This document shows, piece after piece, positions 1-52,796 of a stretch of 64,000 bases of DNA. Source of the DNA: Ophiocordyceps camponoti-saundersi (nom. inval.) (taxonomy: Eukaryota > Ascomycota > Sordariomycetes > Hypocreales > Ophiocordycipitaceae); contig PDHQ01000142.1 in assembly GCA_003339415.1 (NCBI GenBank), positions 23,327 to 87,326 on the forward strand, given 5' to 3'. How positions within the stretch are numbered: the first letter of the stretch is position 1; each line of letters starts with the position of its first letter. The position numbers and the translations under genes were made by a program. Below the pieces are notes generated by a model. The model worked only from the letters and a program-made list of their open reading frames with translations. It did not search any database and had not been told where the DNA came from.

Positions 1-754
1 CAACTCCAACTGACCCTACCCGGCTGTCCAGTGTGTAAGTTCAAGCGAATTCCCCCGTGAAGCTGCAGAGTATGTACTGACATGGCTGGAAACACTAGAT
101 TGTGAGTCCGCCCCTCGATATGGAGACGAGCTGGTTAACGTCAGTCCTAACACGATGGACGAATAGCCTGTAAGTTGAATTGCTATTCCTACCCAAGAAT
201 CACATGACAGATGATTTGAAACTAATACGACTAAAAATTCTAGTATGTAAGTTATATTCCACGGCCTTTGTATAAAGGGCCGATGCTGATGCTTCTGGCG
301 ATACCAGGGCGTAAGTCTAACCCCGTCACGTCACGTTGCACGATTGACGAAAGTTTGACAACGAACAAAAAAAAAACCTCTAGGCGGTAAGTTCTAAATA
401 CAGCTTACCCATGACTCATTGACGATGGTATGCTGATGATGTTGGACTTACTAGGTCGTAAGTGCAAGCCCGTGAAGAGCACCCGACATACATATGTGCA
501 TCAGAGGAGCTGGCTAATATGTCCGTCGATTACCAGCAATAAATTTCAAGCTGGATCGGTATCGAGAGACGAGTTATCCGAGGCGACGAGTCGATGGTTG
601 GCTTGGGTTTCGGTTGATGGGCGGAGCTGCAAAGGGGGGTTTCGACGATGGGAAAGGCAGGGAAAATGTGTCGAGAGTAGGAATCAGAGAGGAAATGACA
701 AGGTTCGACGAACACTACAGAGACATGCTTCGCAGTATCAGCGCCGTTCGCTAG
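1..754 (+). CDS. 3' part of a gene with seven 3-nt exons, product unknown
   Basis: The gene begins left of the window. Eight consecutive 3' splice sites and seven 5' splice sites are visible. The exons between them are 32-34 (TGT), 99-101 (ATT), 167-169 (CCT), 244-246 (TAT), 308-310 (GGC), 384-386 (GCG) and 455-457 (GTC), and the last exon starts at 537. Three reading frames are possible. If introns fall after codon position 1, the microexons read Y-S-L-W-R-G and the last exon continues for 71 residues to TAG 752-754, ending in a charged helix-like stretch (EEMTRFDEHYRDML). If introns fall after position 2, the frame runs to TGA 814-816. If introns fall between codons, it reads C-I-P-Y-G-A-V-Q and stops at 540-542. 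I prefer the first because its C-terminus looks most protein-like, but this is a judgement. No family is recognised. Confidence 0.72.
35..536 (+). other. Tandem array of seven complete short introns
   Basis: Introns, all seen directly: 35-98 (64 nt), 102-166 (65), 170-243 (74), 247-307 (61), 311-383 (73), 387-454 (68), 458-536 (79). Six begin GTAAGT and one GTGAGT; six end TAG or CAG after a branch-point match (TACTGAC at 75-81, CCTAAC at 146-151, ACTAAT at 221-226, TGCTGAT at 284-290, TTGAC-type near 355, TGCTGAT at 431-437, GGCTAAT near 512), and all seven end YAG. An eighth intron is cut by the window edge and ends at CAG 29-31 after ACTGAC 9-14. The introns are not copies of each other, so this is not a recent introner burst. 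Confidence 0.85.
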
Positions 755-816
755 CTGTGCTCGGGACGTTGCATTTTGTATCTGCGAGGTCTGACCGGAT
801 TGTCGCCCGTTGGTGA

Positions 817-1210
817 TGTTGAAAAGCTCCCTCCCTCTCAGGAAACAAGTGATGATGTCATCTCCTCCAGTCGAGATGTATGTGGTATGTAGGTATACAG
901 TATTGGTGACATAACATGCCTAATGAACAGATGATGACTTCCTTCATAAACTGAGGTGCATGAACCACCGCGATGCGATGAGGTGACACAGACAAATTAC
1001 AATATATCCGAGGCTTGCACAAGTTGGATGAGTGCTTTCTTAGTCAACTACCACCTTGTGTACAGGCCATGCATGCGGGGATCCGAGCCCTGCTCCATCT
1101 CAACTCCTCCTCCTCCTCCATCAACAGTTTAGGCCCGAAGAAGCCGAAAGCATAAACTCAAGATATCCCTTTCCAACCACCACCATCCATCCATCCAGCC
1201 AACAGCTGCC
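817..1210. other. Intergenic, no gene seen
   Basis: This is the spacer between the multi-intron gene and the EthD-like gene. It carries CT-rich sequence (about 1090-1200) typical of a fungal core promoter and 5' leader just before the EthD start. Nothing else is recognised. Confidence 0.6.
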
Positions 1211-1522
1211 ATGTCCGCCGTCATCATCTTCTCCTATCCTCGCACCGCCGACGTCAAGTTCGACCACGACTATTACACAGCGAGACACATGCCCTTCGTC
1301 GCCCGGACATGGGCCAAGCGCGGCATGCGCTCTTGGGAAGCCTTTCGCATGGCCGACGACGAATCAAGCGTGGCCGAGTGCGCCCTTCGCTGGGACAGCA
1401 TCGAGGCTTTCGAAACGGCCATGAAGGAAGAGGCGACCGAGGTTCTCGCAGACGTCAAGAATTATTCCAACGTCTCCCCAATCATCCGCAAGGGAACCGT
1501 TGAAGGGCAGGGGTCAGCATGA
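1211..1522 (+). CDS. EthD-domain small protein
   Basis: Single-exon 103-residue protein. It begins MSAVIIFSYP and carries the short ferredoxin-like dimeric alpha/beta-barrel pattern of the EthD family: an opening beta strand, then Y-Y-x-x-R-H-M-P (residues about 26-33), and a closing A-D-V-x-N-Y-S-N-V-S-P segment. EthD proteins were named from ether-degradation operons; in fungi many are small accessory proteins or aromatic cyclase/decarboxylase-like enzymes. The sequence does not identify a substrate. The start is the first ATG after a pyrimidine-rich leader, and the length is typical for the family. No biosynthetic cluster surrounds it, so a housekeeping or detoxification role is as likely as secondary metabolism. 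Confidence 0.85.
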   Translation: MSAVIIFSYPRTADVKFDHDYYTARHMPFVARTWAKRGMRSWEAFRMADDESSVAECALRWDSIEAFETAMKEEATEVLADVKNYSNVSPIIRKGTVEGQGSA

Positions 1523-1945: not shown

Positions 1946-4900
1946 TCACTCTCTATCACCCTTGACGCACTTCCCTTTACCCTTCCCCTTCCCCCTTCCC
2001 TGTCCCTTACCTTGCCGTGAAGATTCCCCCCCGGCAGTACGAGTAGCCTCGTTCGCCCTAGCGTTACCTCGCCTCCCCGGCCTATGCGTACTTCCAGTGC
2101 CCGGATCCTGCAGTTTGGTCTGTCGCTTGGCCTCTTCCTCCTGTGCTCGTCGGCTCTCTAGATCCCACCACTCCTGAAAGGCCTGCTCCTGTTGAATTTC
2201 CTGCAGCGAGCGCTTGGCCACGGCCTCTTTCGCTAGCTCCTGCTCACGTTTCTGTTGTCCGATGATGTCTGCCATGCTCGCCCCCAGCGACGGGCCCGCC
2301 TTGGGTGCTGCCGTAATGTAGGATCTGGAATGGGGTACCAACGGCTCCTTCTTACTGGGGCCGGCAGCTCCCGGCACCACCGCCGCCGCCGAGCCGCTCA
2401 TCCGTCCCTGTCCCGAAAATCTCGTGTCGGGAGAGCCTGTCCGCCTCGGGTTCAAATATGGCCGTGTTTGGGGGGAAACAGCTGATGGCTTCTTGACCTC
2501 CGCTGCGGCCCGTTCCGCCGGCAGGGTGGTGTCAAACGATGTCTTCGAAGTCGCTCCGACCACCTTCCACGGCTGTGGTCGGCTGCCTGCCGTGATTTCA
2601 GGATTCCCAGAGGCCTGCAGCGGAGACTTTTCGACTTGCGTGGCCGCCTCCGCCTGCATCTGCAGATGTTTCTTGCGCTCCTTCTGTGACATCTTGACTG
2701 GTGCTCTGCTGGAAGACGGACTCCTGCTGGCCTGCGCCGCCAGGCCTGAAGTGAGCGTCGATTTGGAGGATGCTTCAGACATGATGTCTCGGAGGTCAAC
2801 TCTCGACCCGCACAAGGCCGGAGATGCCCAGGGCCCACTCGCCTTTCTCAAAGGCACATTGGCTTCCAGAGGGGCCTCTCCGCCGACTCGCTCGGTGCCG
2901 TGGGTCCAACCTGGGCTGAGAGGTGATATTGTTTCCTCATCTGCTGGCTTCTTTCCTGTGCCGCTTCGCCACGCATCCGGCAGTTGCTGCAAGTTCTCCA
3001 GACCAAAGTGCGGACTTGATCCCGAGACACCTGGCATAGACGAGAGCGGACTGGCGGCCTCGAATGTGACTTCATCGTCCATACTGAAAATCAGATCCCC
3101 TTGAGATTGCTTGGAGCGCAGAGTCGGGCTGGCTTGTTCGCTTCGGCTTGCTTTGGGAGTCGTGCGATTTCTTTCGACTGGCGGTGTGACGGTAGAAACC
3201 TCGTCCAGACTCCCGACACGTGCCTTGTACAGAGAAGGAATCCTTCTCTCCTCGTCCTTATGCGTGAGCTTGAAAGCCATCTCTCTCACTCGACGCCGAC
3301 GCTCTTCATCAATATCCGCCACGAGGTCTGGGTAGTTTTGATGCAAGAAGAGCTCGAACCTGCCGCTTCGAGTTATGGGGTATCTCGCCAATTGGTTACG
3401 ACGGACCACTTGGTCCAGATCTTGAAGGAGCTCTTCATCAAGAGAGTCGAGCAGGTGGTTCTCCAGCATACACTCCAAGTGTAAGGCCATGAACTCCAGT
3501 CCGGCATCCTTGAACTCGGTCACTGAGCAGGGGCTGATCTCATTTAGGAGATTGCAGATATTTCGCGTCGTGACAAACCTTCCAATCACGGACTGGCAGA
3601 TCTGAGATAGGCGATCGAGCATGAGTTCGTTCGCAGCGCCCATGACGTTGAGGACAATCTCCGAGAAATCGTCGACAGTAGGCATCGCTACCTCGTGAAA
3701 CATTTCCTCGCCAACATCGGCATAGAGATATTTGAGGACATAGCGGAACGTGTCAAGGCTGATGTGTTTCAGGTCGATGCTCACGAGCTTTGAGGCGGGA
3801 GACTCGCTGCGTCGCTGGAACAGCCATTGTCCCCGCGACCTTCCCTGGAACATACCCTCGAAGAACGGGCACCTCTGGCACATGAGCTGGCTGTGCACAA
3901 CGACATCCCCACCGTGCAGCTGGAGAAGGACGTCGCCGTCGTCGAAAAATGCGGGATCGGAGATGGCTTCCATCATGTCCGCGTTCAGGGAGCGTTTAAC
4001 CCCGGTTTGCAGCCGCGCGGCCGCCTCAAGTTGTGGCATGTGAAGCTTCGTTGCCAGCTTCATGACCTCAGACCGAACTTGGCGAAAGCGGTTCCGGGAA
4101 CTGCACGCGTGTCGCCAGCCCGACACGATCGCGTCTTGATATGCAAACAACACCACATTTAAGATGGTGTGGACGTCAACACCCGCAAAGGTAATCACGA
4201 CTTTGCCATTGTCGAACTCGAGACAAAAAGTGTCCGAGTACGAGGTGCTCATTGTCCCCCGACGAAATGCGGAAAAGGCCTCTCGCAAGACGCGACTTCG
4301 CGCGGCGAGAACAAAGCCGTGAACTGGAACCGTTATATTGGGAGCAGCGGTAGTTCGGATTCCGACATCCAGACCCGCGTGTTGAAAACAGCAAGGGGCT
4401 AAGTCCCGTTCCACGTCTAGAGACCGTAGTATCTCATAAGGCACCGGGGTGAGCTTGTCTTTCAATGCAGCCTGCTCCCAAGAACTATTCGACTCATTAA
4501 TGTCACTGAATGGCTCGGAAGGCTTGAAGTCTCGCAGGCAACACAAACGAGCTGTGTCTGCCCAAAGCGACTGCTCTGCGATCTTGATGCTATCGGACAT
4601 GATGCTCTTGTCTCTTCTCACGGCAGCGAATGCTCCGAAGACAGAGCTCCGAACGTTGACACAGTCGGTAATGTACGGCACTCTCTCAAACTTGAAGTCC
4701 TTCTTGATACTCGACGACGGGAAGCCCGTGACCTGGACGTTTGGACGTTCGACTCGCTTCCATACGGCCCCGGATTTCGTACACAGAATGACCGAGCCAT
4801 TTTCACCGACGCTGACTGAGGAGACACCGTCCTTTTTCGAGTTCCAAATGCGCTTGGGCTGCGTCACAGCGCTTTTCATCTTGACTGGATTGGTGGTCGA

Positions 4901-6661
4901 GCCGGCGGGCTGGCTGGTATCTCCCTGGTGGTTGATCTGCATGGTAAACAAATCGCCGCGAGACGTAACGGCCGCAATCGTTTCGCCGCCCGACGTGATG
5001 TATCGAATCTCTCTCCAGCTGTAGTCGAGGCTGCGGGAGAAGGACTTTCCCACTAAATAATTATTGCCCAGGATGTCGGGAACAGGAAACTTGACCAGAT
5101 TATAGCCGTAATTAGTGAAGACCCAGACGGTGAAGTTGGAGAGCAAGCAACTCGTGGCCTTATCAATGGCAGAGACCATCTCGATAGGCGACGACAGGAG
5201 CGATGCCGCAACTCTTCGAGGCGTCTGTTGCACATCGAGGGATCGAGAGTCCGAGTCGACGACGGCAAGCTGACCAGCGTTGCGTCCCCAACAATACAAG
5301 GATGAGCTCGTATGTGCAACCGAGTGGATGGCGGAGGCGGCAACTCCTATGATAAGTTCTTTCTTCAGAGCGCCGAAGACCTGGCGCGGCGTCAAGCTCA
5401 TTGGCTCTTCGTCGGCCCTAGCTGGCGGGGGAAGAGCGTAGCCGAGTTGTGCATCTGAGTTGAGTCCGCACGTCCAGAGCTCGCCATTGTCCGTAACGAA
5501 CATGGTGTGGTTTTGTCCGAGAGCGACAGCTTGTATTTTGCGGTCTGCGAAGGGGCCCTGCACGGGTAGAAACTTGAACTGGGTGTTCTCGTGGCCTAGT
5601 CCGAGTCTCCCACCTCTTCCAACTCCACACATGTAAATATTTGACACTGGGTCAGTCGTCAAGACTGCGCTGTGGAGTTTCGACATGACGACTTCTTGAA
5701 TGACGATCGGTTTGTCCCGTATCAGATTGGGGATGTTCTCGATTTCTGGCGGCGATGAGGGGCAGTCCGTATCCCGCCCTTGTGTAGGCGACATGTGAAG
5801 GCGACGAAGCAACCCATCCGGCCGCTGAAGCGAAATGCGCTTTGGGACTTTGTAGTCGTCATCTAATAGCCCGAGCGACACGTTCTTATTGCTGCCGAAG
5901 ACATAGAGCTCGCCGCCTTCAAACGAGGGGCTCCTGCCATGCGATGGGTTCATACCGCTGGGACTAGGTCAGCTGGCGTTCCAGTCGGGTAGGAGAGGGT
6001 ATACCGACACTTGGGTCGCTTCATCGCTGCTATCACTGTCTTCGGATCCATCTTTCAAGCGCCGTGACTCTAGATCCTCCGTACACGCAGTTGTGGACAT
6101 CATCAAGTTGTAGAGGTCAAAGGGGCTGTTTCCTTCATGATCTTTCATCTTGAAGAGCTGGCCAACCTTGACAAGGGAGTGCGGCGCACAATTCACCGGG
6201 GCGCTTCGCTCGGCAGCTAGCAGCAGGCGCGCGATAGAGATATTACCCGAGTACAGAGCTCGGTGGAGTGCATTCCAACCAGACTCGGGATCTTGCACGT
6301 ACAGATCGATGGAGGGATGCTCGGCGAGGGTTTGGACAAACTGTATTGCACGAGTGTCAGTCGAGGAGGCAGCGCGCAGCAAAAGCGTCAGCCCAACGTA
6401 ATCACGGCTGTTGACCTCGCTTCTGCCCAGGCTCGTGCCGCCATCTCTGGACCTCGAAGTGGCCGAGGAGAAAGCTGAAGGCCTGCGGTTCTTGTAGGCA
6501 TTGCGCGGCGATGTGCCCAGGCCGCCGGGACTCGATCCGCCGGATCCTACCGCCGTGCTTTTGGCAGCGCTGGCGTGCGAGGTGAAGCCGCCAGGAGCCA
6601 ACAGACGCCGAAACCGGTCGACATCGTTTTCCCAGTAGTATTTCCACAGCAGATGACTCAT
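1946..6661 (-). CDS. Ankyrin-RCC1-BTB-BTB protein, IBtk/Btb3-like
   Basis: Exon 1 (6661 to about 6005) encodes an N-terminal ankyrin region (MSHLLWKYYW start; GWNALHRALYSGN at about residue 135). The second exon (open from 5953 to 1946, 1335 residues from its first Met) encodes RCC1-type repeats (about 12-400) and two BTB/POZ domains starting near residues 530 and 675. A long low-complexity tail ends in an RG/KG-rich basic stretch. This order matches animal IBtk and fission yeast Btb3-type proteins, which are Cul3 ubiquitin-ligase adaptors (family knowledge). A clear GTATAC donor (6004) and GCTGAC-CTAG-TCCCAG acceptor region (5959) lie between the exons, but exon 1 ends in phase 0 and every nearby acceptor leaves one base, so the joined frame breaks. 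An indel in the sequence or an unusual splice is needed. Confidence 0.85.
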
Positions 6662-37004: not shown

Positions 37005-37634
37005 TCACTCCATGACAACCACAGCGCCCAGCTCTTTCATCTTGGTGACGATACCTTCTCCCTCCTCCTTCGATACGTTTTCTTTCATCATCTTGGGTGC
37101 GCTCTCGACGAACTTCTTGCTCTCCACTAGACTCAAGCCCAGCAAGGCCTTGACCTCCTTGATAATCTTTGCCTTGGCCGCCGCATCAAAGGATTGCAAC
37201 TTGAGCGTAAACAACGTCTTCTCGACCACGGGCGCAGCCTCCTCCTCGGCCTCTGGAGCGGCAGCGGCAGCAGGGGCAGCAGCAGCAGCGAAGCCGCCGA
37301 CGGGCATGTCTGGAATATTGAGCTTGCTCTGTACGTAGTTGACGAGTTAGTTGCTTCAAGGCGCCGATTGAATCTTCTTCTCCCTTTCTCTGACTCTCGA
37401 TTAACTTGCCTTTAGACTAGACACGAGATCTGCCGTCTCCAGAAGTGTCAGCTGGCTGATTTGCTCGACCAGCTGTGCTATCTTGGGGCTTGCCGGCGCG
37501 GCGGCCTCGGTCGAGTTGAAGCGTCTTGTCGTTGATGTTACCCGCCATGTCTGTGAGCAACGACTCGCGACTCCGCCGAGGGACCGTATCTGACGGGAGC
37601 AGCTCCTCGCTGCGCATTGACAGGGTATCATCAT
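37005..37634 (-). CDS. Mitochondrial ribosomal protein L7/L12 (bL12m)
   Basis: Two exons, 37634-37410 and 37328-37005, 182 residues. The N-terminus is basic with R-R-F-N-S, a mitochondrial presequence pattern. Then comes the dimerisation helix (I-A-Q-L-V-E-Q-I-S-Q-L-T-L-L-E), an Ala/Glu-rich hinge, and the C-terminal factor-binding domain with K-I-K-E-V-K-type helices (A-K-I-I-K-E-V-K-A-L-L-G-L-S-L-V-E-S-K). It forms the stalk that recruits elongation factors in the mitochondrial large subunit. The 81-nt intron has a GC donor (AAG then GCAAGT), a CTAAC branch point and a TACAG end. Two adjacent ATGs at the start are both possible. Confidence 0.94.
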
Positions 37635-37877
37635 GTTCTGCAGCGGGAGCGAAGCAGTAATATCTCGTGTAGATGCGATGTGATGGCCCGTTCTTTTGGA
37701 GTTGAAGTAAAAGCTCTCTCTATCTTACGTAATCAGAAAATTGATATCGCCAAAAAGGAAAAAACCCTGCTCTCTGTGTGGCTCACACATAAAAACTGGA
37801 GCGACAGTGAGAGAGAGAGAGAGACAGAGACGGAGAGTGAGAGAGAGAAACATGTTTTCACCTACAAAAACGCCATC
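37635..37877. promoter_or_regulatory. Short divergent promoter, bL12m and midasin genes
   Basis: Only 243 bp lie between the two start codons. It includes a GAGAGA-rich stretch near 37808-37850, close to the midasin start. The midasin frame is open through it but the translation is not protein-like. Confidence 0.6.
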
Positions 37878-40800
37878 ATGACTTCCTTTGATCTCTCACG
37901 GCAGACGAGGTCGCTCCTGGAGGACGCGACTGCTTTGCATCATCTGCCGCCGGATTTACTCGATATTATACGGCAACATTCACCGACGACGCTCCTGGAC
38001 GCTGTCGCAGAGGCGGCACTGAATCCTTCACTTACAGACAGAATATTCGTTCATTATGAAGATGTCTTTCCTGATATTTGCGCAAGATGGATCCTCACCG
38101 CAAACTCTGAGAAGCAAAGGTTGATTGTTGCCGCCGCCTTGGCCAGAATTTTACCCTTTGCCCCTTATCTGGCCGAGTTCATCAGATGTTCTCATCATTC
38201 GAGCCAGGATCGACCGTCTCTTCACCTGGATTTGATCAAAGTCGATGAGAATCTTCCGTGGCTGCTGGACTCGGACGAGCTGCTGTTGGCTCTCATCACG
38301 CAATGGAGGCTGTTGAGTTTCGACCTACGCTTGTTTAGACCTGTTGTGTCGCCGCTCTTCATCCAGTCCTTGTTCCGGCGCGGAAGCAGAGCTGTACGAT
38401 ATGTTGCCATTCGCATCTATTGTCAGCTGCTTCGTGCATCGGACAAGAAGCTTGAGACTCTCATTCTTGAGCATTGTGGTCGCGAGAGCGCCATCGTCGC
38501 CGATTTTGACGGGATGCCGGTGGATTTCGGCTTTTTATCAGTGCATGAGCATCGGCGTGCTCAGCGGATCATCGCACTGAGAGACCATGTGAAACGACAC
38601 AGTCATGTTCCTGGTGAAAGTCCTCTTCTTCAGACCCTGACCTCCTATGTTGTGCCGTACGGAAATGTCGTCCTTCCACGGCCTTCGGGATCTGTCGGAG
38701 AGCCGTCAATCCTGGTAATGACGGAAACGACTACGAAGAATCTCCAAGACCTGGCTTCGGTGCTACGAGAGACGGATCCAATTCTTCTCCGTGGCCCACC
38801 GGGTGCGGGAAAGACTGCCTTGGTTCATGAGCTCGCGAGACAGCTCGGCACATATGCCAACATGGTCACTTTGCACCTGAATGAGCAGACCGACGCAAAG
38901 ATGCTCATTGGCCTTTATTCGACCAACTCGAAGCCCGGTAGCTTCCAATGGCGTCCTGGTGTGCTAACCACGGCCATCAAAGAAGGGAGATGGGTGCTCA
39001 TCGAGGACCTGGGCCGGGCGCCGACAGAGGTTCTGAGTATTCTGCTTCCTTTAATAGAGCGAAATGAGCTGCTCATACCATCTCGCGGAGAGACTATCCG
39101 CGCTGCCAAAAGTTTTCGTCTTTTCGCTACCATTCGTACGGCACCGAGCTTGGACGACAGGAAGAATCTGCCCAACCTGGTCGGGATACGTCTTTGGCAA
39201 TCCCTCTTCATCGAGCCCCTGGCCTCGGCTGAGTTGGAAGACGTCATCGTGCAAACATATCCGATTCTGCGAAAATTCGTCACTGGCATACTAGCAGTTC
39301 ATCAGCGACTTTCCCGGCTGACGGGCAGCCCGGCTTTCATGGCCCGTGGACGGAGCGTCATGGATCGTCAAATAAGCCTCAGAGACCTTCTCAAATGGTG
39401 TCGCCGGCTCAGGGAGTGTCTTCTATCGGCGGGGTCAGTCTCGGGCGATGAGCCCATCAGTGAAAACACGCGAGATTGTATGTTCATGGAAGCGCTGGAC
39501 TGTTTCGCGGGGAACTGCCCTGATCCTGCGCTCAGTAAAGAGCTTGCGTTTGCTATTGCCGAGGAAATGCATATATCCAGAGACAGAGCAGAACATTACA
39601 TTTCCGCCAATATACCTGTTTTGGAGGACGGCGATCTGATGCTTGGCATCGGAAGGGCTCAGCTTCGGAAGAAGAAGAGAAGTTTAACGGGTCGGATGCA
39701 GAGATCGAGACAGCCTTTCGCCAGCACCACCCATGCAAAGAGGCTGCTGGAGCAAATCGCCGTGGCGGTCAAGCTGCAAGAACCCATCCTTCTCGTCGGC
39801 GAGACGGGGATCGGTAAAACCACCGTGGTTCAGCAGCTTGCAGAGTCTCTGGGACACAAGCTCATTGCCGTCAATCTCTCACAACAGAGTGAGGCAGGGG
39901 ATTTGCTCGGCGGCTTCAAGCCAGTCAACGTTCGAAGCCTAGCCGTCCCGCTGAAGGAGGAGTTTGAAGATCTGTTCGCAGCCACTGGCATATCCGCCTC
40001 GAAGAACCACCGATATCTGGAACAAATTGGCAAGTCCTTTGCCAAAGGACAATGGTCCAAGGTGTCGAAGCTATGGAAGGAGGCGCCGCGGATGTTCATC
40101 AAGATTGTCGCCGAACTCGAACGCATCCAGTCGGAAACTCGTGACGATGCTGCACAGCCGGCAAAGCGCCGTAAGACGCAGTCCAAATTGCAGACTCTGT
40201 CAGAATTGCGGCCGCGGTGGGACTCTTTCGCTCGCAAACTCGAGCAGTTCGACGTTCAGTTGTCGGGCGAGACCGGAAGCTTCGCGTTTTCTTTCATCGA
40301 GGGCAACATTGTCAAGGCTGTTCGAAATGGCGACTGGGTGCTCTTGGATGAGATTAACCTCGCTTCGCCGGACACGCTGGAGACCATTGCCGATCTCCTG
40401 ACCGGGCCGGACGAGCGGCCTTCCATCCTGCTCGCGGAAACGGGCGAGCTTGAGAAAGTCGTCGCTCATCCGAATTTCCGCATCTTCGGCGCCATGAATC
40501 CTGCAACGGATATCGGTAAAAAAGATCTGCCTGTCGGCATCAGGTCAAGGTTCACGGAACTCTACGTTCGAAGCCCCGATGGGGATCACAAAGATCTGCT
40601 CACCATCGTCAAGGCGTATCTGGGGAGCAGCAGCGCCAAGAATGACCAGGCAGCCGACGACATCACACGATTGTATCTCAACACGAAGCGAATGGCGGAG
40701 GAGAAGCGGCTGGTAGACGGGGCTAACGAAGTCCCTCATTTCAGCTTGAGAACGCTGACACGAGTTCTGACCTATGTCAACTCTATCGCGCCGTTTTATG

Positions 40801-43800
40801 GCCTGCGCCGCGCTTTGTTCGAGGGATTCTCGATGGGTTTTCTCACATTATTGGATAAACAATCCGAGACAATGCTGCTTCCTCTCATCCATCATCATCT
40901 CCTTGACAAGCATGGGAACCCCCAGTCTCTACTCTCGCAGACGCCACAGCATGCCAAAGACGGTAAGCAATACGTCAGATTTCGGAACCGGAGTCGGGAT
41001 CGTCAATACTGGCTCTTGCAAGGCGGACAGACCCCTACTGAAAGAGACGACTATATCATTACCCCGTTTGTGGAGCGGAACCTCTTGAACCTGGTGCGAG
41101 CAACGTCAACACGGCGGTTTCCGATCCTTATACAGGGACCAACGTCTGCTGGAAAAACGAGTATGATTGAGTATCTGGCCAACTTCACTGGCAACACCTT
41201 CGTGCGCATCAATAATCACGAGCATACCGATCTTCAGGAGTATCTCGGAACGTACATCTCCGGGCCAGACGGCAAATTGCGCTTTCAAGAAGGTCTCCTT
41301 GTTGAGGCCATGCGACAAGGCTACTGGATCGTGCTGGACGAGCTCAACCTGGCGCCTACGGATGTGCTCGAAGCCTTGAACCGCCTCCTTGACGACAATC
41401 GCGAACTGCTGATTCCCGAAACGCAGGAAGTTGTCAGACCTCACGAAAGCTTCATCCTGTTTGCTACGCAGAATCCGCCGGGTCTTTATGGTGGCCGCAA
41501 AGTACTTTCTCGGGCATTCCGTAACAGGTTTCTGGAGCTACACTTTGACGATATTCCCGAAGATGAACTGGAGTATATCCTGCAACAGCGCTGTCGTAAC
41601 ACGTCTCCACCCGACTGTCGACGGATCGTCAATGTCTACAAAGAGCTTTCGAGGCTTCGTCAGTCCAGCCGACTTTTTGAGTCAAAGGATAGTTTCGCAA
41701 CTCTGCGGGACCTCTTTCGCTGGGCTCTAAGAGATGCGGACACAAGAGAGGCGATCGCTGTCAATGGCTTCATGCTACTGGCGGAGAGGGTTCGGAACGA
41801 AGAGGAGCGTTTGGCTGTCAAGGGGGTCATCGAGAAGGTCTTCAAGATCGACATTAACGCCGATGAACTCTATTCGGAAACTTCTGCGCCTGAATTGAAA
41901 CATCTCATCGGCGTCTCCAACTGTCAAGATGTGGTCTGGACTCATGCTATGCGGCGTCTGTATGTGCTGGTCTCCAGAGCTCTTCGTAACAACGAGCCGG
42001 TTCTTCTCGTCGGTGAGACTGGTTGTGGAAAGACTACAGTCTGTCAGGTGCTTGCCGAGGCTATGGGAAAACAGCTGAGCATCGTCAACGCACATCAAAA
42101 TACGGAGACTGGAGATCTCATAGGCTCGCAGAGGCCAATTCGAAATCGAGGCGCGATTCTTGATGCTCTTGATCACGAGCTTGCATCCGCTTTGGGGGCC
42201 CTTGGCTTGACCATCCCATTGTCGACTGAGGAGAAACTTCAAGTATATCGATCTTTGGACGAGGCTTCGATCGCAAAGCTGCCTCGAGAGCTCCTCCAAC
42301 GTGTCTCAGCGAACGAGACGAGAGCCAAGGCCCTGTTTGAATGGCCCGATGGAGCTCTGGTGGAGGCGATGCGAGGGGGATACTTTTTCCTCCTCGACGA
42401 AATATCACTGGCGGATGATTCAGTTCTTGAAAGGCTCAACCCGGTCTTGGAGCCTAAGAGGACACTGCTTTTGGCCGAAAAGGGCGTAGACAACCCCCTC
42501 GTCGTGGCGTCTGATGGGTTTCAGCTCCTCGCAACCATGAATCCTGGTGGTGATTTCGGCAAGAAAGAGCTGTCCCCTGCCTTGCGAAACCGCTTCACGG
42601 AAATTTGGGTCCCGCCTCTATCAGAAAGCCATGACATCTATTCCATCGTGCAGACGAAACTCCTGGGAGGAGTCAAGCATCTTGCGGATGACATGGTCCG
42701 GTTTGCCGTGTGGTTCGGACAGACGTTTCGGCCGATGGCGACAACGCCCTTTTCGGTGCGAGAGCTGCTTGCTTGGGTCCATTTCATCAATTCTTTTGAA
42801 GCGGCCGATGCTATGATGTCCTTCGTTCATGGAGCGTCTGCCATTTTTATCGACAGCATCGGGGCAAGTCCCTCTGCGATGCTCATGATTGACTCCAAGG
42901 CGATCCAGCAACAGAGAAACGAGTGCCTTAAGAAGCTGGGAGATCTTATCGGGTGCGACGCGTCCGAGGTGCATGGGTCAAATCCTGAGGTCGTCGTGAC
43001 AGTCGACTCCTTGACCATTGGAAAGTTCAGCGTGCCGCGTTGCTCAACCAGGATGACTGATGCGGGCTTCGCGTTCCACGCGCCAACAACGAGGCTCAAC
43101 GCCATGAGGATCGTGAGGGCACTTCACACGCGCAAGCCCATTCTCCTCGAGGGCAATCCTGGCGTTGGCAAGACGTCGCTGGTCGCGGCCTTGTCCCAGT
43201 CCTGCGGCCGCCCCTTGACGCGCATCAACCTATCCGATCAGACAGACTTGATGGATCTTTTCGGAACAGATGTGCCGGTTGAAGGGCAAGAGGCCGGCAA
43301 CTTTGCATGGAGAGACGCCCCTTTCTTGCAGGCTATGCAAAAGGGCGAATGGGTTCTTCTTGACGAAATGAATCTCGCCTCTCAGTCTGTTTTGGAGGGT
43401 TTGAACGCCTGTCTCGATCATCGCGGCGAGGTCTACATCTCTGAGCTCGACCAGGTGTTTAAACGCCATCCCGACTTCAGACTCTTTGCGGCTCAGAACC
43501 CTCACCATCAAGGCGGAGGACGTAAAGGCTTGCCTGCGTCATTTGTGAACCGGTTCATTGTCGTCTACGCGGATGTTCTTCAAGACGAAGATCTGAGGCT
43601 TATCGCGACTCATAATTTCCCTGATTTGAGTTCCGAAACTGCCAATCTTGTCATCAACTTTATCTTCCAGCTCGATCACAAGCTTTCAATCGAAAAGTCA
43701 TTCGGATTGCAAGGCGGTCCCTGGGAGTTCAATCTACGTGACGTCCTCCGATGGCTGGATTTGTTGAACTCGAAGGACCCCTTGCTGCGGACAGCTCGTG

Positions 43801-46800
43801 TTGACGATTTCCTGCAAATCATCGTCCGGCAACGCTTCCGTACACAAGAAGACCGAGATAAGGTGGAGAAGCTCTTTGGCCAACTTGCTGGGTGGAAACC
43901 CCGGACGCACTCACTTTACCATGATGTCAACTCTTCGTTTAGCCAGGTCGGCCTCGCCCTTCTGCGCAGAAACCTTGACTATCAGCCTGAACGACTGCCC
44001 GACTTGGAGACCGTGGCCATCCTCCCCGAACTTGAGTCTGTGATGATTTGCGTGGAGAAGAACATTCCCTGCATTCTGAGCGGCCCTTCTGGCTCCGGAA
44101 AGTCTGCTCTTTTGACTTACGTCGCTGCGTTGGCGGGAAAGCCCCTTGTGGTGTTCCCCATGAACGCAGATATCGACACGATGGACCTTGTTGGTGGTTT
44201 TGAGCAGGCAGACCCCCTCCGCGAGCTGAACTCGACCTTGCGCAGTCTCCGCGACCATTTACGAGATACCCAGGCGTTGAGTGCTCCGGCGGAATTGCCC
44301 CCTGAGGTATTTCGAATGCTGCATCTGCTGGATGCGTACGCGGGGGACGGAAGCGACACTGGAGACATACAATCTGCCTTGGAGTCCCTGCAAGCATTGA
44401 GTGAAGTCGATCTCAACGTGGGCCTTTGGGTGCAAAAGGCTGCGAGGCTGTTGCGGGAACCACTCGTCCTTGCGAATCCGAAATTCGAGTGGCTTGATGG
44501 AATTATCGTCAAAGCCCTGCAGACGGGACAGTGGCTCGTGCTCGACCATGCCAACATGTGCAACGCCTCTGTTCTTGACAGACTGAACTCGCTGCTTGAG
44601 CCGAATGGATTCCTGTGTATCAACGAGCACTGTGACATAGACGGGAAGCCCAAGATCATCAAACCTCATCCGGATTTCAGGGTTTTTCTGACTATGGATC
44701 CAAGCTACGGCGAGCTTTCGCGCGCGATGAGAAACCGGGCAATCGAAGTCCATCTCCCTTCACGACCTTGGATCAGACATCCTTGTTTTGACAAGATAGC
44801 CGAGATCGAGAGCGGGCTTCGAAGAATCAAGAATGCCATGGACTATTGCGAAACACTCTCGTCGACGGACTCTGCCGCGTACGCCTGTCAATATGCCTGC
44901 GAGAATCTGTCCCTGGAAGATGTGTCACTGCTGCCGCGGTTTGTGGATGGAAAGTTTTGGGGAGAAGCACAAGATCAGTCTTCTTTCGAACCGATGACAA
45001 ACTTGATGGGATTTTTGCAGTCGCCCACTGGAAGTAGCAATGTCAAAGCAATCGAGAACACGCTCTCGACTATTCCAGGGGCCACGCATTCGCTGGTCGT
45101 CGCTCAGGTAATCACTTTCGGAGTTAATTACGATGAAGATAAGTTGGCTAACCGATTCCAAGCCTATCAACGCATTGAACAATTACCTGGTCTCGCAGCT
45201 GCTTCCCAGACCGGGAGAGGCGCAGTGGGCGGGTTCACGGTTTGAATTCTCGCGCCTAATCCATGACATGCAGGGCACTGTTCAGCGGCATTGTGGCGAG
45301 GCACGCTCTACCGGGTTGGCGTCACTGACTCGGCTGCAACGATCCTCCATCAGCGCTCAGGCCGCGGTCGTATCTAAAGACTCAACTGTGAAGCTATGTG
45401 TCTTTCTTTCAGCCGCTATGAGTGCTGTGCGAAACTACATTGCTCTAGATTTTCCGTCTCTGGAGCTATGGATGGTAGGAGAGCCAGCTTCTGCGGATAC
45501 CCCTTGATATAGCTAATTCTAGTTCAGGAGCGTTCTCGTCTTTGCCGCTTTGTGGTCCATTACCTGGATCAGACGATTGTCCTTTCGAGCCGAGAAACCT
45601 TTGATGAAGCAAGATTCCAAGCTCATCTGGCTGTTGGAACAAGCGTCTTTGAACCTCTTGTCGCAGCGCTGAATGACTTTCGAGATTCCGACTTCTTGGC
45701 GATGGTGCTTCGCCTTCTTGGCAGCAGCTTCAAAAGCGGGTTCCAACTATCAACTGGCCTCAGCATGGAGCGTCTCTGGCATGTGCTGCGGGCCACTCCG
45801 TTCCCCGACAAGTCTGCCTTTGATCAGTCTATAAGATTGGATAGATTGGCTAGCCGATTCGATGCCATCCGCTGGAAAGCGCACGCCTCCGTATCGGATC
45901 TCACGCAGGCTCATGATGCGTTTGAGCAGGCTTACATGATTGTCCGTGGTGGAAGAGGTTCAGCGGACGAGCTTGTCAGTGACTTGACAGTCGCCGTGGA
46001 CTCATTGGAGCTACGCATTGGCGACCAGGAGACCGATCTGCAACCTTTCTTCGTCCGAGAATTCGAGTATCTCAGGCAGATTTTCATGCTTTCCTCTTCA
46101 GATGTCCATCGTCAAAGAAAGACGTCGATGAGCAATCTGGCGGTTTTATCAGGTGTCCCGACTAAAAGCAGCATCATGTTCGCCATCACGAATGGGCCAT
46201 CTGCACTTTTGCAGTCTGTTGATTGCTTGATCTGCCAGGACATTCAATTATGGGACGGGAAGGTCGCGGCCTCTGTTTGGCATAAACTACAGAATCTGGA
46301 TGCCGTCAACCTCCGCTCGCTATCTCTTCTCGAATCTGAGATGCCGGCCCTTGGGCAGTGGGTTTCCGAATTGAGCATCGACATTGCATCGGATCCCTTG
46401 ATGAAGTTGAACGATCTTCTCTGGCAGCTTTTGTCGGAAATATTTGCGGCTCATGAGCCACAGCTCAAGGACTTGATAGCGTCGGCGCACTCCATGGCGC
46501 TACAACACCAAGACTCGGCTTTGGACGTGACGCAAAATGGACTTGGTGACGGCCACTCTCATTTTGATGGTATTCTCAAGCAGATTGACGCGCAGCATCT
46601 CCGACAAATCTCCAGATATCATCTCATTCCAACCGTGGTTGGGCTTGTTGCAGCCGAACGCGACACAACCAAAAGAGCCTTTTATTCCGCCTTGGCCTGG
46701 ATGCAGTTCAGCGTGGGACTAGTGAAGCTGTACGTCCCTGACCGTGTCTTTGATCCTCATCTCCGGCCACTTGTCGAGCAGGAGTTCTTCGAGAGCTTGC

Positions 46801-49800
46801 AGATGCGGTTGAGAGAAAGACTATCTGCCTTGCGGTCCCTGGAGCGGTTGTCAAGCGGACAAGACACGAGCCTGCGGATAGAATTGTTGGAAGAGCAGCT
46901 GTTGCAAGTTACGCTGCCACGTCAAGATCTCAAGCCTGTTTATCGGCCAGACATCTCTGAACTCGACAGACTTCACGCTGAATGCTCTAACGTACTCAAA
47001 GTCGTCACCGGCACCAGCATGTCGTCACTTCTCCGACAGCTTGGCGCATCGGACTCAGCGGACGATGCCAGCAGGCTTCTGCAATTCATGAAACAGAATG
47101 TTCAGAGCCTTGTTCATCGATTCTCGTCACAGTTCGCGGCTTATCAAGACATGACAAACATCATCTTGAATGCCTTGCGATGTCTTTTGGTGGGAATCTC
47201 TCTGTGCGACGCGACTGTAGCGGATGGTTTGCAAGCTTCTACCGACCAACTCGCCAGCGCGACACCCTTCTTTGACGGCATAGGCTGGAATGCCAGCGTC
47301 GAGAAGCCTTACCGGAAGAACTTTGAGTATCTCAGCCTTGTGAGCGCCTCTGTCGCCGTGGAGGGGGTCGACAGCCTCTCGCTGGACTCACGCGAATCCA
47401 TTTTTGAGTGCTTCCACAGCTTTTACGATGACTGGTGCAAGAGACTTGAAGTGGATCGCAAGGCAGAAGAGACGAGAACCAGCTTATATCGATTCCACGG
47501 CTCGATGGAAGACGAGGAGGAGATAGACATGAATGAGTTCAATGAGCTGTTCCCGACATACGATGGAGACGGTTCCACGGCTAAACGCTCCGCGTCGCTC
47601 GACCAAGTCCGCGACACCTCGCTGAGGGTGGCGGAAGCCCACCGTGCCATCTTCCTCGACAGGCGGGACCCAGCTGCGGCCATCCGGGAAGCGTGCATGG
47701 CAGTCGGTCAACTGATAGCTAATGAGACTGAAGAACCTCTGAACATTGATCGACGTGTCAATGCAAAATTACTCTGCACCTTGACCCTCCGCCTCAGCGA
47801 GAAGCTGGAGAGTCTTCAATCCATGCCGGTGGATAAGCCCAGCACGGAAAAGATCGTCAACTTCTACACGGATTCCAATCTTGTCGAGGCTCGGAAGCTG
47901 GTCTTGCTCGCTCAGAGGGTCAAAACACGGTTCAGAGAGTTGCAACGCGTTGACGAGATTGGTCATATGCAGCCACTGGCAGATGTCGTTGAGTCGTGTG
48001 AGAGGCTGCTTGATCAAGTTCACATGGAGCCTCTCGCGAAGCTCATCCCAAAGGTGGAGCAACTTCACGCTGTTGTCTACGAGTGGCAATTTGGCGGATG
48101 GGCCAGCAAGGTCTACGCCGTGCTTCCTCTTCACGATGCGCTCACAGATACAATTATTCGCTGGCGGCGGCTCGAACTGATGACGTGGGCTAAACTGTTC
48201 GACATGGAGGAAGAGAAGTGTCGGAAGGATGCTTATTCCTGGTGGTTTATGGCCTACCAGGTGGTTCTGGCCGTGCCACTGTCTATGGTTAACTCACCGT
48301 CGGAACTGAGAGACTACGCAACGTCGTTGGTGCGAAGCCTAGAGGACTATCTTTCAGAATCCTTCGTCGGCCAATTCAAGACGCGCATTGGCCTGCTGCG
48401 GCAGCTCTCGAGCCACCTCAGCCTCTTGGCTAGGGACTATCCGACCTTGGCGGTGGTAGACGGCGCCATTCACAACTTTGTCAACTACTTTGCACGATTT
48501 GAATCAGCTGCCGATGCAGCCACCAGAGACGGACGAGCGCCAATCGAGAAGAAGATGAAGGAAGTGCTATTGCTGGCTAGCTGGAAAGACACCAACATCA
48601 ATGCTCTACGTGAGAGCGCTCGGAAGTCTCATTTGAAGCTCTTTAGACTGGTGCGAAAGTTCCGTGGCGTCTTGGGTCAGGACATGAAGGCCATTGTCGG
48701 CAAAGGCCTGCCAGACGAGACGTTCCATTCCGACAGTGTCAGCGCCCGCAAGGTTCCGACGATTGATTCCTCGGACGTACAAGTAGTGTCCCTGAAGGAG
48801 GTGCTCCCTGCCTGGTTGGACAGTCACCGGAGGCTTGCCAACGTGGTGACGACAGTTTCGGTGCTGGAGAGGGTGGCGCAGAGTCTGGACGTTATGGATA
48901 ATGCTGCCAGCGTCGTCAATGACTTCGTTTCGAGCTTATTGGCCTCAATGGATGAGCTGAAACGGGAGACGCCGGTATTCATGAACGACGAGACGAAAGA
49001 TCAAGTCAAGCATCTCAAGACGAGAAAGAGGAAGCTTCTGGCAGATACGTTGAGAGACTTGCGGATGATGGGAGTGAGGCACAACTTGGCTCAAAATAAG
49101 CTGGCCTCACAAGACTCACTCGCTGTCATCTTGGCGACGATGGCACCTCTGCAGACTTCGAGCCTGCCCGAAATGGCAGAAGCTGATTACTTTCTTCAAC
49201 AGTTGCTTGATCTGGCATCGAGGGCAAGGAACGCGATGCGGGAGCACTCTGAGGATCTGACCCGTGCAGAGGTCAGTCGATGCGTCGGGTTGGTCGAAGG
49301 CTTGATCGACATATCCCTTTCACAGCGAGGCAGCATCGCCCTGGCAATCCAGCCCCTTACGCTGCTGCAGCACACAGCGGCAGAGTTTCGACGGTTTGGA
49401 GGCTCCCAGAAGCTATCCCGACGCAAAGGCCAAGGAAACTGGCTTGGATTCCTCCCCTGGCTTTCTCAAATACTGCGGTTTGGCTCCAAATTGGTTGAGG
49501 CACAGGGGAAACTGGGACGGAGAGACGTCGAAGAAGTGACTCAGAAACTTGAAGGATGGGCTGATCGCGCCGACTTTCATGTTGCCACTTCGAACGACTT
49601 GGGCAAACTCTCTGGGCAGGTTGTTTCCGAGGCACATGCACAGCTAGAAGTGGCGGTTACCAACGACATCCAGTCTCTTCGGGAGGAACTCGATGAGCTC
49701 AATCGCAAGCGACCGGACTTGTCGCTCATTCTCCAGCAAATCTCAGTTTGGACGCATATCAAGGATCAACCTGCGGACTCAGCAACAGCTCCTTTCATGG

Positions 49801-52796
49801 AGTTGAAGACATGGGCTGATTCTGTGTCGACCCTGGTTGACACCTTGCTGGTTGCCGTCGAGAGCACGAAGAAGACGGCGACATTGCACATACCAGGGGA
49901 GGACGAGGCGGGATGGCTGAGAAAACATAGCGACCTTGTCTTCGCTTCCGTTCAGCAACTTCACATGACGGATATCGAGAGGGAAGCTCGCCATTGCCTG
50001 GAGCAGATGCAACAGCTTGACGTTGACGATGAGACAATCAGCACAGCAACAACGAGTGTGATTTGCCTCGCAAGCCCGGTGATTGACGGCTTTCTGGAGC
50101 TCTGTCGGCAGTGTGTCGGCCGCGGCATAGCCCTACATCGCGCCACAGTCCACATGTCGGCCAAGCTGACGAAATCCTTTACGCAAATAGCTTCACAGGG
50201 ATTCTGTACGCCGCAAGAGAAGTCTGACGAGACTTCAGGTGATTCCGGACAGCTGGAGTCCGGGACGGGGCTCGGCGAGGGCGAGGGGGCTGAGGACATC
50301 AGCAAAGACATTCAGCCCGACGAGGACCTCAGCGAGCTAGCGCAAGAAAAGAATGAGGGTGAACAGAAGGACCTGGAAGATGAGAAGGACGCGGTGGACA
50401 TGGCCGACGAGGAGTTGGAGGGGGAACTTGGCAGCGTGGACGGAGCGCAAGACGATGAGAACGGATCCCAGAGCGGGGAAGACGGGGAGGAGAAGGATGT
50501 CGAGGAAGAAGCAGGTGAAGTCGATGACCTGGATCCCACGGCATTGGACGAGAAGATGTGGGATGGAGACGACGAGAAGGCAGACAAGGACCAGCAAGGC
50601 AACAAGCCAGCAGGTCGCGAAGAGGACGACGAGGTAATGGCCCCTGAGGAAACACCCGAGGGCAAAGAGGCGGAAGAAAAGGCCGAGGCCGAGGAGCAAG
50701 ACGTTGAGGACGAGCCAGAGGCAGAGGAGGATGGTATTGCGACGCAGGACGAGATCAACCGACAGGATCAGAATGTACAGGAGAAGGATGCGTTGGAGCT
50801 GCCTGATGAGATGAACTTGGATCTCGAGGACGGAGTATCAGCGTCTTCTGCAGACGATGACTTGGATGACATGTCGGACGTTAATGAGGAGAAAGAAGAA
50901 AAGGGAGAAGAAGAAGAAGGAGAGGACTGCGGCAAGGACGAGACTAAAGACGAGGAAATGAAGGACCAGGCGGATACCAACGAGGAGGAGCAGCAGCAGG
51001 AGGAGGAAGAAGCGGCAGACAAGGCCGGCGGCGAGGAAGACGTGCAGGATGAAGTCAAGTCGGACATGGATGCAGATGAGCAGGCGGAGGAACAAGGCGA
51101 AAACGAGGCACCGACCTCAGCAGATACGGCCAAAGCCGACATGGATAATGCGGCTCCCAGCGATGTCAAAAGCTCTGGACGAGACCCGACCGCCGATCAG
51201 AAGGACGCGGACGAAGCGTTCAGGGCTGAAGCGGCACAGCAAGACGGAGGGGAGATGGGTGATAGCGCGGCAGATCGGGATACCAGCGCAGGGAAGCAAG
51301 GGGAGACGGCGTCACGATCACAGGCGGAGGGTCCAGAGCAAGAGAAGCAGGACGTCGCGGACTGCGAGAAAGACGAGGCCAGAGGAAGTAACCCTTTTCG
51401 GAAACTGGGAGACGCGCTCGAGAAGTGGCACCGACAGCAGGCGGAAATACGAGACGCGAGGCCGGACGATGTCGAAGAAGCACAAGAGCAAGTCGGTATG
51501 GAGTTTGAGCATATCAAAGAGGACGATGAAGATGTTGGGGACACGCAGGCCATGGGTGCGGCGCGCGATGAAGAGGCGGTCCCCTTGGACGAGTCTATGG
51601 CTATAGAGAGTGATGACAAGGACAGGCAAGAGAAGGTGATGGAGGCAGAACAACAAGATGAAGAAGAGGAAGTGGGAGAGGAGAAAGGGGTGGACGATAT
51701 GGATAGCCAGTCAGAGCAAGGCCCAGACGGCAGGGCTGGCGATGATGACCGTTCCGGAAGCAAGATTCACCAAGGAGGAGCCTACAAGGACGAGATGCAG
51801 ACGCTGGAACCAGAGCAGGACGACGACGACGACGACGACGACGAGCAGCTAGTGGAAGAGACGGGGGAACAACTATCGCGAACGCACATGACGGAAAGGG
51901 ACCTGGACGAATGCCGGCGACAATGGTCAGAGCTAGAGCGCAAGACTCAGGGGCTATCACAGTCACTGACGTCCCAACTGCGGCTCATCCTACAGCCAAC
52001 CCAAGCAACGAAGCTATCCGGCTCCCACCGCACCGGCAAACGCCTCAACATCAAGCGAATCATCCCCTACCTAGCATCAGGCTACAAGCGCGACAAGATC
52101 TGGATGCGAAGAAGCGTCCCTACCAAGCGCCAATACCAGATCCTAGTCTGCGTAGACGACAGCAAAAGCATGGGCGAGACCTCAGCCGGTTCCCTAGCTC
52201 TCGAAGCCCTCGTCATGCTATCGACTTCCCTGACCATGCTCGAAGCAGGCCAGATCGGCGTCTTCGCCTTTGGAAGTCACGTCGTCACAGCCCACGACCT
52301 GTCTTCTTCACCTTCTCTGGCGGGAGAAGCCGGCGCCAGAGCTCTTCAGAGGATAAGTTTCAGCCAGGAAAAGACGGACATGGCGCAACTGGTGCAGAAG
52401 ACGACGGAAGCTCTCCGCACAGCTCGCAGGATCCAATCTTCTTCTTCTTCCTCGTCGGCAGGTCAACTATGGCAGCTAGCAGTCGTCCTCTCAGATGGTC
52501 TGACCCCCTCGTCAGCCCACGACACGATAAGACGACTTCTGAGGACGGCGGCGGAGGAGCGCGTGATGATTGTCTTCGTCGTCATCGACGGCGCAAGCGA
52601 AGGAGGCGGAGTCCTGGATCTGAAGGAGGCGCGGTTCGTGCGCGGCTCTGACGGGGAGAGCTCCGTCGTTGTCGAGCGGTACCTTGATTCTTTCCCCTTT
52701 CCTTACTACCTTGTTGTTCGGGAGGTTGAGGAGCTTCCGAAGGCGTTGGCTGGCCTTTTGAGGACTTGGTTTGCTGAGGTGGAAGAGGGGGGTTGA
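37878..52796 (+). CDS. MDN1: Midasin, dynein-related AAA ATPase of 60S assembly
   Basis: Three exons, 37878-45107, 45163-45474 and 45528-52796, all phase 0, 4936 residues, the normal giant size for Mdn1/Rea1. Six AAA domains are marked by Walker A motifs: GPPGAGKT (about 306), GETGIGKT (640), GPTSAGKT (1086), GETGCGKT (1377), GNPGVGKT (1757) and GPSGSGKS (2066). A long linker follows, then an Asp/Glu-rich region (about 4100-4625) and a C-terminal MIDAS/vWA domain with V-D-D-S-K-S-M-G-E (about 4722). Midasin removes assembly factors such as Rsa4 and the Ytm1 complex from pre-60S particles. The ATG at 37878 is preferred over upstream in-frame codons because protein-like sequence begins there (MTSFDLSRQTRSLL). 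Confidence 0.97.

Follow-up and report, generated by a model that had tools for sequence, protein, structure and literature searches.

How finely can introns divide a protein-coding gene? The question is raised by the first few hundred bases of a stretch of 64,000 nucleotides (C47:23327-87326, hereafter the window) from Ophiocordyceps camponoti-saundersi, a member of the O. unilateralis complex of ant-infecting fungi (PMC11057048, in whose main text neither "intron" nor "exon" occurs). An initial annotation of this DNA had described a chain of introns separated by seven exons of exactly 3 nt. That reading is supported except for its count: the chain begins upstream of the window and contains 24 such exons, not seven.

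Layout of the chain gene

The start of the window falls inside the chain gene, of which the window covers only the 3' end. Read from the sequence of the window and of the region upstream of it, the gene has 26 exons and 25 introns. Exon 1 comprises 78 nt from an ATG at C47:22016, 1,311 bases upstream of the window, which itself holds the last 542 of the 1,853 bases from ATG to stop; exons 1-18 lie outside it, within C47:22016-23292. The 24 internal exons are consecutive, each of exactly 3 nt and each in phase 0, and the acceptor-NNN-donor sites that delimit them (n = 24) follow one another without interruption at a spacing of 54-79 nt. The introns are 51-79 nt long (n = 25) and amount to 1,697 of the 1,853 nt between ATG and stop (>90%). 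The terminal exon opens with CAA TAA (Gln-stop), immediately after a last acceptor at window positions 534-536. The joined exons make up 156 coding nt, 72 of them carried by the 3-nt exons and almost all of the remainder by exon 1, and give a conceptual product of 51 residues, MKISIALFSVLAGLAAAYPCEKHPTDPGCRWEPNIFNPGGPDVCIPYGAVQ, followed by the stop. An alternative in-frame start further upstream (L002:7995) was set aside because the reading frame from there crosses TACATA repeats. Within the window, the gene is laid out as follows:

1..31 (+): 3' part of intron 18, with CTGAC branch site and CAG acceptor; its donor lies upstream at C47:23293
32..34 (+): 3-nt exon 19, TGT (Cys44)
35..98 (+): intron 19, 64 nt, GTAAGT...CTGAC...TAG
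99..101 (+): 3-nt exon 20, ATT (Ile45)
102..166 (+): intron 20, 65 nt, GTGAGT...CTAAC...TAG
167..169 (+): 3-nt exon 21, CCT (Pro46)
170..243 (+): intron 21, 74 nt, GTAAGT...CTAAT...TAG
244..246 (+): 3-nt exon 22, TAT (Tyr47)
247..307 (+): intron 22, 61 nt, GTAAGT...CTGAT...CAG
308..310 (+): 3-nt exon 23, GGC (Gly48)
311..383 (+): intron 23, 73 nt, GTAAGT...TTGAC (weak branch site)...TAG
384..386 (+): 3-nt exon 24, GCG (Ala49)
387..454 (+): intron 24, 68 nt, GTAAGT...CTGAT...TAG
455..457 (+): 3-nt exon 25, GTC (Val50)
458..536 (+): intron 25, 79 nt, GTAAGT...CTAAT...CAG
537..542 (+): coding part of the last exon, CAA TAA (Gln51, stop)

The seven 3-nt exons listed here are those originally proposed, and the details given for them hold as well: seven YAG-NNN-GTRAGT sites are present (at window positions 29, 96, 164, 241, 305, 381 and 452), the window donors are GTAAGT or GTGAGT in 7/7 cases, and the window acceptors are YAG in 8/8. 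The strong branch point claimed for nearly all of these introns was found as CTRAY near the acceptor in seven of the eight, the one at 311-383 having only TTGAC. An AATAAA at 538-543 shares bases with the chain gene's stop codon, and a poly(A) signal could accordingly coincide with the 3' end of the coding sequence.

Introns of the U2 type in filamentous ascomycetes are short, with a GT or GC donor, a CTRAY-like branch site and a YAG acceptor, and the chain introns agree with this description in donor, branch site, acceptor and length. All 25 end in AG, the acceptors being 13 CAG, 11 TAG and 1 AAG (24 YAG), and all begin with GT except one, which begins with GC. Their donors include 9 GTGAGT, 8 GTAAGT, 3 GTACGT and one each of GTAGGT, GTATGA, GTAAGA, GTAAGC and GCAAGT. 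In introns 1-5 the donors depart from the consensus (GTAGGT, GTATGA, GTACGT, GTACGT and GTAAGA), and introns 13-25 have GTAAGT or GTGAGT throughout. A YTRAY motif lies no more than 45 nt from the acceptor in 24/25 introns. Scored with a matrix that we wrote ourselves from the consensus, the best branch site has a mean of 7.4, whereas shuffled introns reach 1.9 on average and 3.5 at most over 300 shuffles; branch sites are weak in introns 2, 6 and 23. The median distance from branch site to acceptor is 18, and this interval is free of AG in 18 of the 25 introns (11.2 expected), the other seven having an extra AG. Each of the 24 internal exons, flanked in the DNA by a splice site on either side, is at 3 nt within microexon size, and the chain gene may be regarded, on its DNA anatomy, as an extreme variant of a microexon gene.

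The gene next to it upstream (L002:5520-6425) encodes the beta, or regulatory, subunit of casein kinase II (156.7 bits to Pfam CK_II_beta), and TACATA/TGTATG repeats are, by eye, frequent between the two. On the other side, within the window, an ORF of 103 codons at 1211-1522 (+) has one protein match (61%), Ophiocordyceps australis CDD81_4180, named EthD domain-containing. It is followed at 1946-5968 (-) by a BTB/RCC1/ankyrin ORF of 1340 codons that is 100% identical to O. camponoti-saundersi CP533_5650, whose record protein, with 1554 aa, is longer than the ORF. The AAA and midasin lid domains identify the ORF at 37557-45245 (+) as midasin (MDN1). The ORF at 45513-52796 (+) has a single VWA match, weak at 25.2 bits (cut-off 27), towards its end, and a strong purine skew at 50-52 kb; it probably encodes the remainder of midasin, including the acidic tail. 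The G+C content of C47 is 53.7% over 83 kb and that given for the O. camponoti-saundersi genome 40.00% (PMC11057048), a difference that large AT-rich regions elsewhere may explain.

Departure from chance and search for copies

The chain is far from what chance arrangements of the same bases produce. In the 64-kb window, YAG-NNN-GTRAGT occurs nine times on both strands together, seven of them in the chain, against 1.31 expected from 100 shuffles, none of which reaches nine. A looser pattern, HAG-NNN-GYRNGN, matches 24 times in the 2,100 bases from the ATG, and 24/24 of these matches are the sites of the chain. Throughout the intron region of the gene, the loose pattern finds 24 cases in which acceptor and donor stand 3 nt apart and the strict pattern 17, and no other distance between 0 and 30 is found more than five times (loose) or once (strict). 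In 2,000 dinucleotide shuffles, the distance of 3 appears 1.3 times on average and six times at most (loose), or 0.04 times and twice (strict). The longest run elsewhere is two in 83 kb of C47 and three in a 200-kb sample of C111, as opposed to 24 in the chain. A strict CTRAY rule splits the chain into pieces of 8, 7, 3 and 2 introns; elsewhere, in a 200-kb sample, pieces do not exceed 2. A sequence model derived from 23 chain introns gives 30 matches at E<=10 in 83,891 bases, some of them counted twice where sources overlap, and all of them inside the chain. Because the model was trained on chain introns, only the lack of matches outside the chain is informative.

We searched the whole genome (45.7 Mb in 733 contigs) for further copies. 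At the DNA level the chain gene matches only itself, and a search with exon 1 turns up no further match at E<=10. The pattern YAGNNNGTRAGT occurs at 1586 places, compared with 629 for its reversed control (2.5 times); many of the matches listed are TAGTAAGTAAGT-like and probably represent AT-rich repeats. For CAGNNNGTGAGT the excess is small (198 vs 146 for the reversed control), and for CAGNNNGTAAGT there is none (120 vs 123). Among the matches listed (100 of 1586, 100 of 198 and 100 of 120, respectively), clusters of at least three are confined to C47. Close pairs outside the chain include five overlapping GTGAGTGAGT pairs among the listed CAGNNNGTGAGT matches, one of which lies on C111 within the 200-kb sample, and, among the pattern matches listed, C15:3890/4197. 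Another pair, C16:51145/51235, proved on reading to be a tandem repeat with a unit of ~90 nt; the surrounding C16:50500-52000 (L032) is an AT-rich tandem repeat of ~90 nt with TAGGAGGTAAGT in two successive copies. Six stretches with single or paired matches (in C605, C1, C8 and C180, and two in C29) contained no run when inspected. The suggestion that genes of this kind could be missed widely finds no support here; in the fungus's own genome, the pattern matches listed include no second chain. In a collection of 5.8 billion predicted proteins, none shares three 5-residue words with the product, in a search that is insensitive for a query of 51 residues, and Pfam has no match to the product at E<=10. 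Absence from protein collections carries little weight, because a gene of this build would rarely be predicted by gene finders.

Coding potential, splicing and alternative explanations

The strongest argument for a coding function is that start codon, constant phase and stop fit together. Exon 1 (26 codons) reads MKISIALFSVLAGLAAAYPCEKHPTD and then meets its donor; with a K near the N-terminus, a core of hydrophobic residues and an end rich in Ala, it resembles, by eye, a signal peptide. The triplets are stop-free in 24/24 cases, an absence that alone has P = 0.21 for intronic triplets. Their codon-usage score of 1.4 lies between the values for intronic triplets (-10.4, sd 7.1) and for real codons (5.3, sd 2.8), nearer to the latter, and is reached by 1.8% of intronic draws (P = 0.018); the score was trained on nine long window ORFs (9,890 codons) taken as genes without individual checking. 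Codon usage thus lends modest support to coding, in part reflecting the missing stops once more. We infer a secreted peptide of 51 residues as the putative product, 24 of them coming from single-codon exons. Cleavage of the leader after Ala17 would leave a mature peptide of 34 residues with three cysteines, in which single-codon exons would contribute 24/34 residues.

Our preferred reading, which we consider probable from the sequence at hand, is that of a protein-coding gene from which the spliceosome would remove 25 introns one by one, leaving an mRNA for the 51-residue secreted peptide. By intron definition, ordinary U2 spliceosomes would treat every short intron as one unit of recognition; with all 25 introns removed, each internal exon would contribute one amino acid. 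Removal would probably be sequential, because a 3-nt exon gives the machinery little room at both of its sites together. Exon 1 plus the next triplet would then form the upstream exon for the following donor, in a ratchet-like splicing that retains 3 nt per step. Several points count against this model: the searches yielded no homologue, the codon-usage test is weak, and some splice signals are irregular, namely the donors of introns 1-5, the branch sites of introns 2, 6 and 23, one GC-AG intron, one AAG acceptor and the extra AG in seven introns. A further point is the arithmetic of 25 introns, in which an efficiency of 99% each yields ~78% correct mRNA and one of 95% about 28%. Since the exon length is constantly 3 and the phase 0, loss of an internal exon would remove a single residue and leave the reading frame intact. 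The single-codon exons might thus act as a codon-by-codon cassette, by which the peptide is varied residue-wise in the RNA or its output tied to near-perfect splicing, although this idea, drawn from the gene layout, seems unlikely to us. Frame-neutral skipping would be built into the design; that it is actually used is speculation.

Such use is the substance of one alternative, combinatorial splicing, in which any of the 24 codons could be skipped and one gene would generate a family of related secreted peptides. As 24/24 internal exons measure 3 nt and keep phase 0, every skip would indeed be frame-neutral, and donor strength does differ along the chain, being lowest in introns 1-5. Frame neutrality, however, comes with any 3-nt exon and is hence no sign of use, and the GTAAGT/GTGAGT donors of introns 13-25 are equally compatible with constitutive splicing, so that we hold this alternative to be quite unlikely. 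Removal of the whole chain as one long intron, joining the 26 codons of exon 1 to Gln-stop with the internal sites as stepping stones or decoys, is very unlikely. The exon 1 donor and the last acceptor exist, and joining the two exons would preserve the reading frame, but this intron would measure 1.77 kb, far above the 51-79 nt units of the chain. Moreover, once internal sites were used at all, the triplets would remain in the RNA, because every donor starts 3 nt past its acceptor; zero-length sites, with AG directly followed by GT, number 0.

Introner-like elements have near-identical intron sequences. An introner-like or tandem-duplication origin was rejected for the chain, as its introns show no clear mutual similarity and the gene matches itself alone in the genome. 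Among 300 pairs of intron cores the best score is 13, and 20 shuffle sets reach up to 14, with an average of 11.6. Neighbouring introns are no closer in sequence than distant ones. The 44-nt segments at window 283-326 and 430-473 are 75% alike, a figure that includes their shared splice signals. Mean similarity is slightly above that of mononucleotide shuffles (local 6.98 vs 6.26, global 0.094 vs 0.073), so that the introns may, judging from these alignments, have a very old common origin. If they do share an origin, dissimilar interiors beside intact splice signals would fit current selection, which speaks against a relic, that is, a chain once used whose transcription has since been lost. 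A relic would accord with the failure to find a homologue or a second copy and with the weaker sites at the 5' end; the acceptor-donor pairs are nevertheless intact in 24/24 cases and stop triplets number 0, and we give this alternative very little credence.

A non-coding transcript with the introns as its product (host of a small RNA or snoRNA) is the least probable explanation, since, for all the intronic share of the gene (1,697/1,853 nt from ATG to stop), it would leave the signal-peptide-like exon 1 and the open phase-0 triplets without explanation, the window has no Rfam match at threshold, and the introns fold no better than shuffles. The whole window yielded 0 Rfam matches at the gathering threshold, and a tRNA search none. 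Permissive Rfam searches gave none in the upstream part (L002:8150-9991) and one at 927-983 in window 1-1250 (E 0.78, 14.6 bits vs a gathering threshold of 45), well under that threshold and outside the chain. Intron folding energy relative to shuffles has a mean z of -0.01 (25 introns), with one intron at -2.9. Neither a known family nor a stable fold of the kind expected of snoRNAs or other intron-hosted RNAs was found in the introns.

Significance and comparison with known systems

If RNA confirms the predicted structure, the chain gene would be an extreme split gene, with 24 successive amino acids each on its own three-base exon. An mRNA as modelled would mean that the spliceosome copes with 24 consecutive one-codon exons, a case that, if true, lies outside exon-definition models and tests both intron definition and the order of splicing. 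Gene finders and short-read aligners usually fail to place 3-nt exons, and similar genes could escape annotation. A further question is how 25 introns reached successive codon boundaries in one small gene, a packing of introns seen nowhere else in the genome among the pattern matches listed.

We found no description of a chain of single-codon exons among the matches listed from open-licence PubMed Central, in agreement with the initial remark that no described fungal gene of this build was known. In overall plan, the chain gene resembles the micro-exon genes (MEGs) of schistosomes, organisms of another kingdom. Schistosome MEGs encode small secreted proteins through chains of tiny exons with lengths that are multiples of 3, and skips keep the frame; their exons are longer and of mixed length. 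The chain gene shares with them a long series of coding microexons of length divisible by 3 (24/26 exons), a likeness of gene plan. Ratchet points of recursive splicing have a zero-length exon, in which AG is directly followed by a GT donor; in the chain gene the acceptor-donor distance is 0 in no case and 3 in 24.

The Hypocreales, to which Trichoderma virens belongs, offer a further comparison. The T. virens gene Xlr2 contains a switch-like microexon (PMC11121469) and, as presented in extracts of that 2024 paper, shares with the chain gene its occurrence in a hypocrealean fungus and differs as a single microexon in a transcription factor. The same extracts state that functional microexons had previously not been described in filamentous fungi, and mention those of schistosomes. 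Stwintrons and recursive splicing (PMC8469720, PMC9024468 and PMC6224609, in extracts) likewise involve successive splicing events at one place, whereas in the chain gene every intron is complete in itself, with donor, branch site and acceptor, and a 3-nt exon is left between neighbours. No chain intron interrupts the signal of an external intron, as the internal intron of a stwintron does, neighbouring introns lying 3 nt apart. None of five terms for tiny exons occurs in PMC6616335.

Exons of 3 nt or of very small size occur in Drosophila homothorax (PMC7392893) and among plant microexons (PMC8831610). According to extracts of these papers, they too are of one codon or tiny and have their own splice sites, but they lie within ordinary genes, and no chain of 3-nt exons appears among the matches listed. 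The nearest fungal case among these matches is lipS of Dactylellina haptotyla, with two 3-nt exons and >10 introns (PMC5639578). As far as the extract of that paper describes it, lipS is likewise a many-intron gene of a filamentous ascomycete with spliceosomal 3-nt exons, and it differs in having two of them where the chain gene has 24 in succession. Isolated 3-nt exons are already known, and an unbroken chain of 24 would go beyond them.
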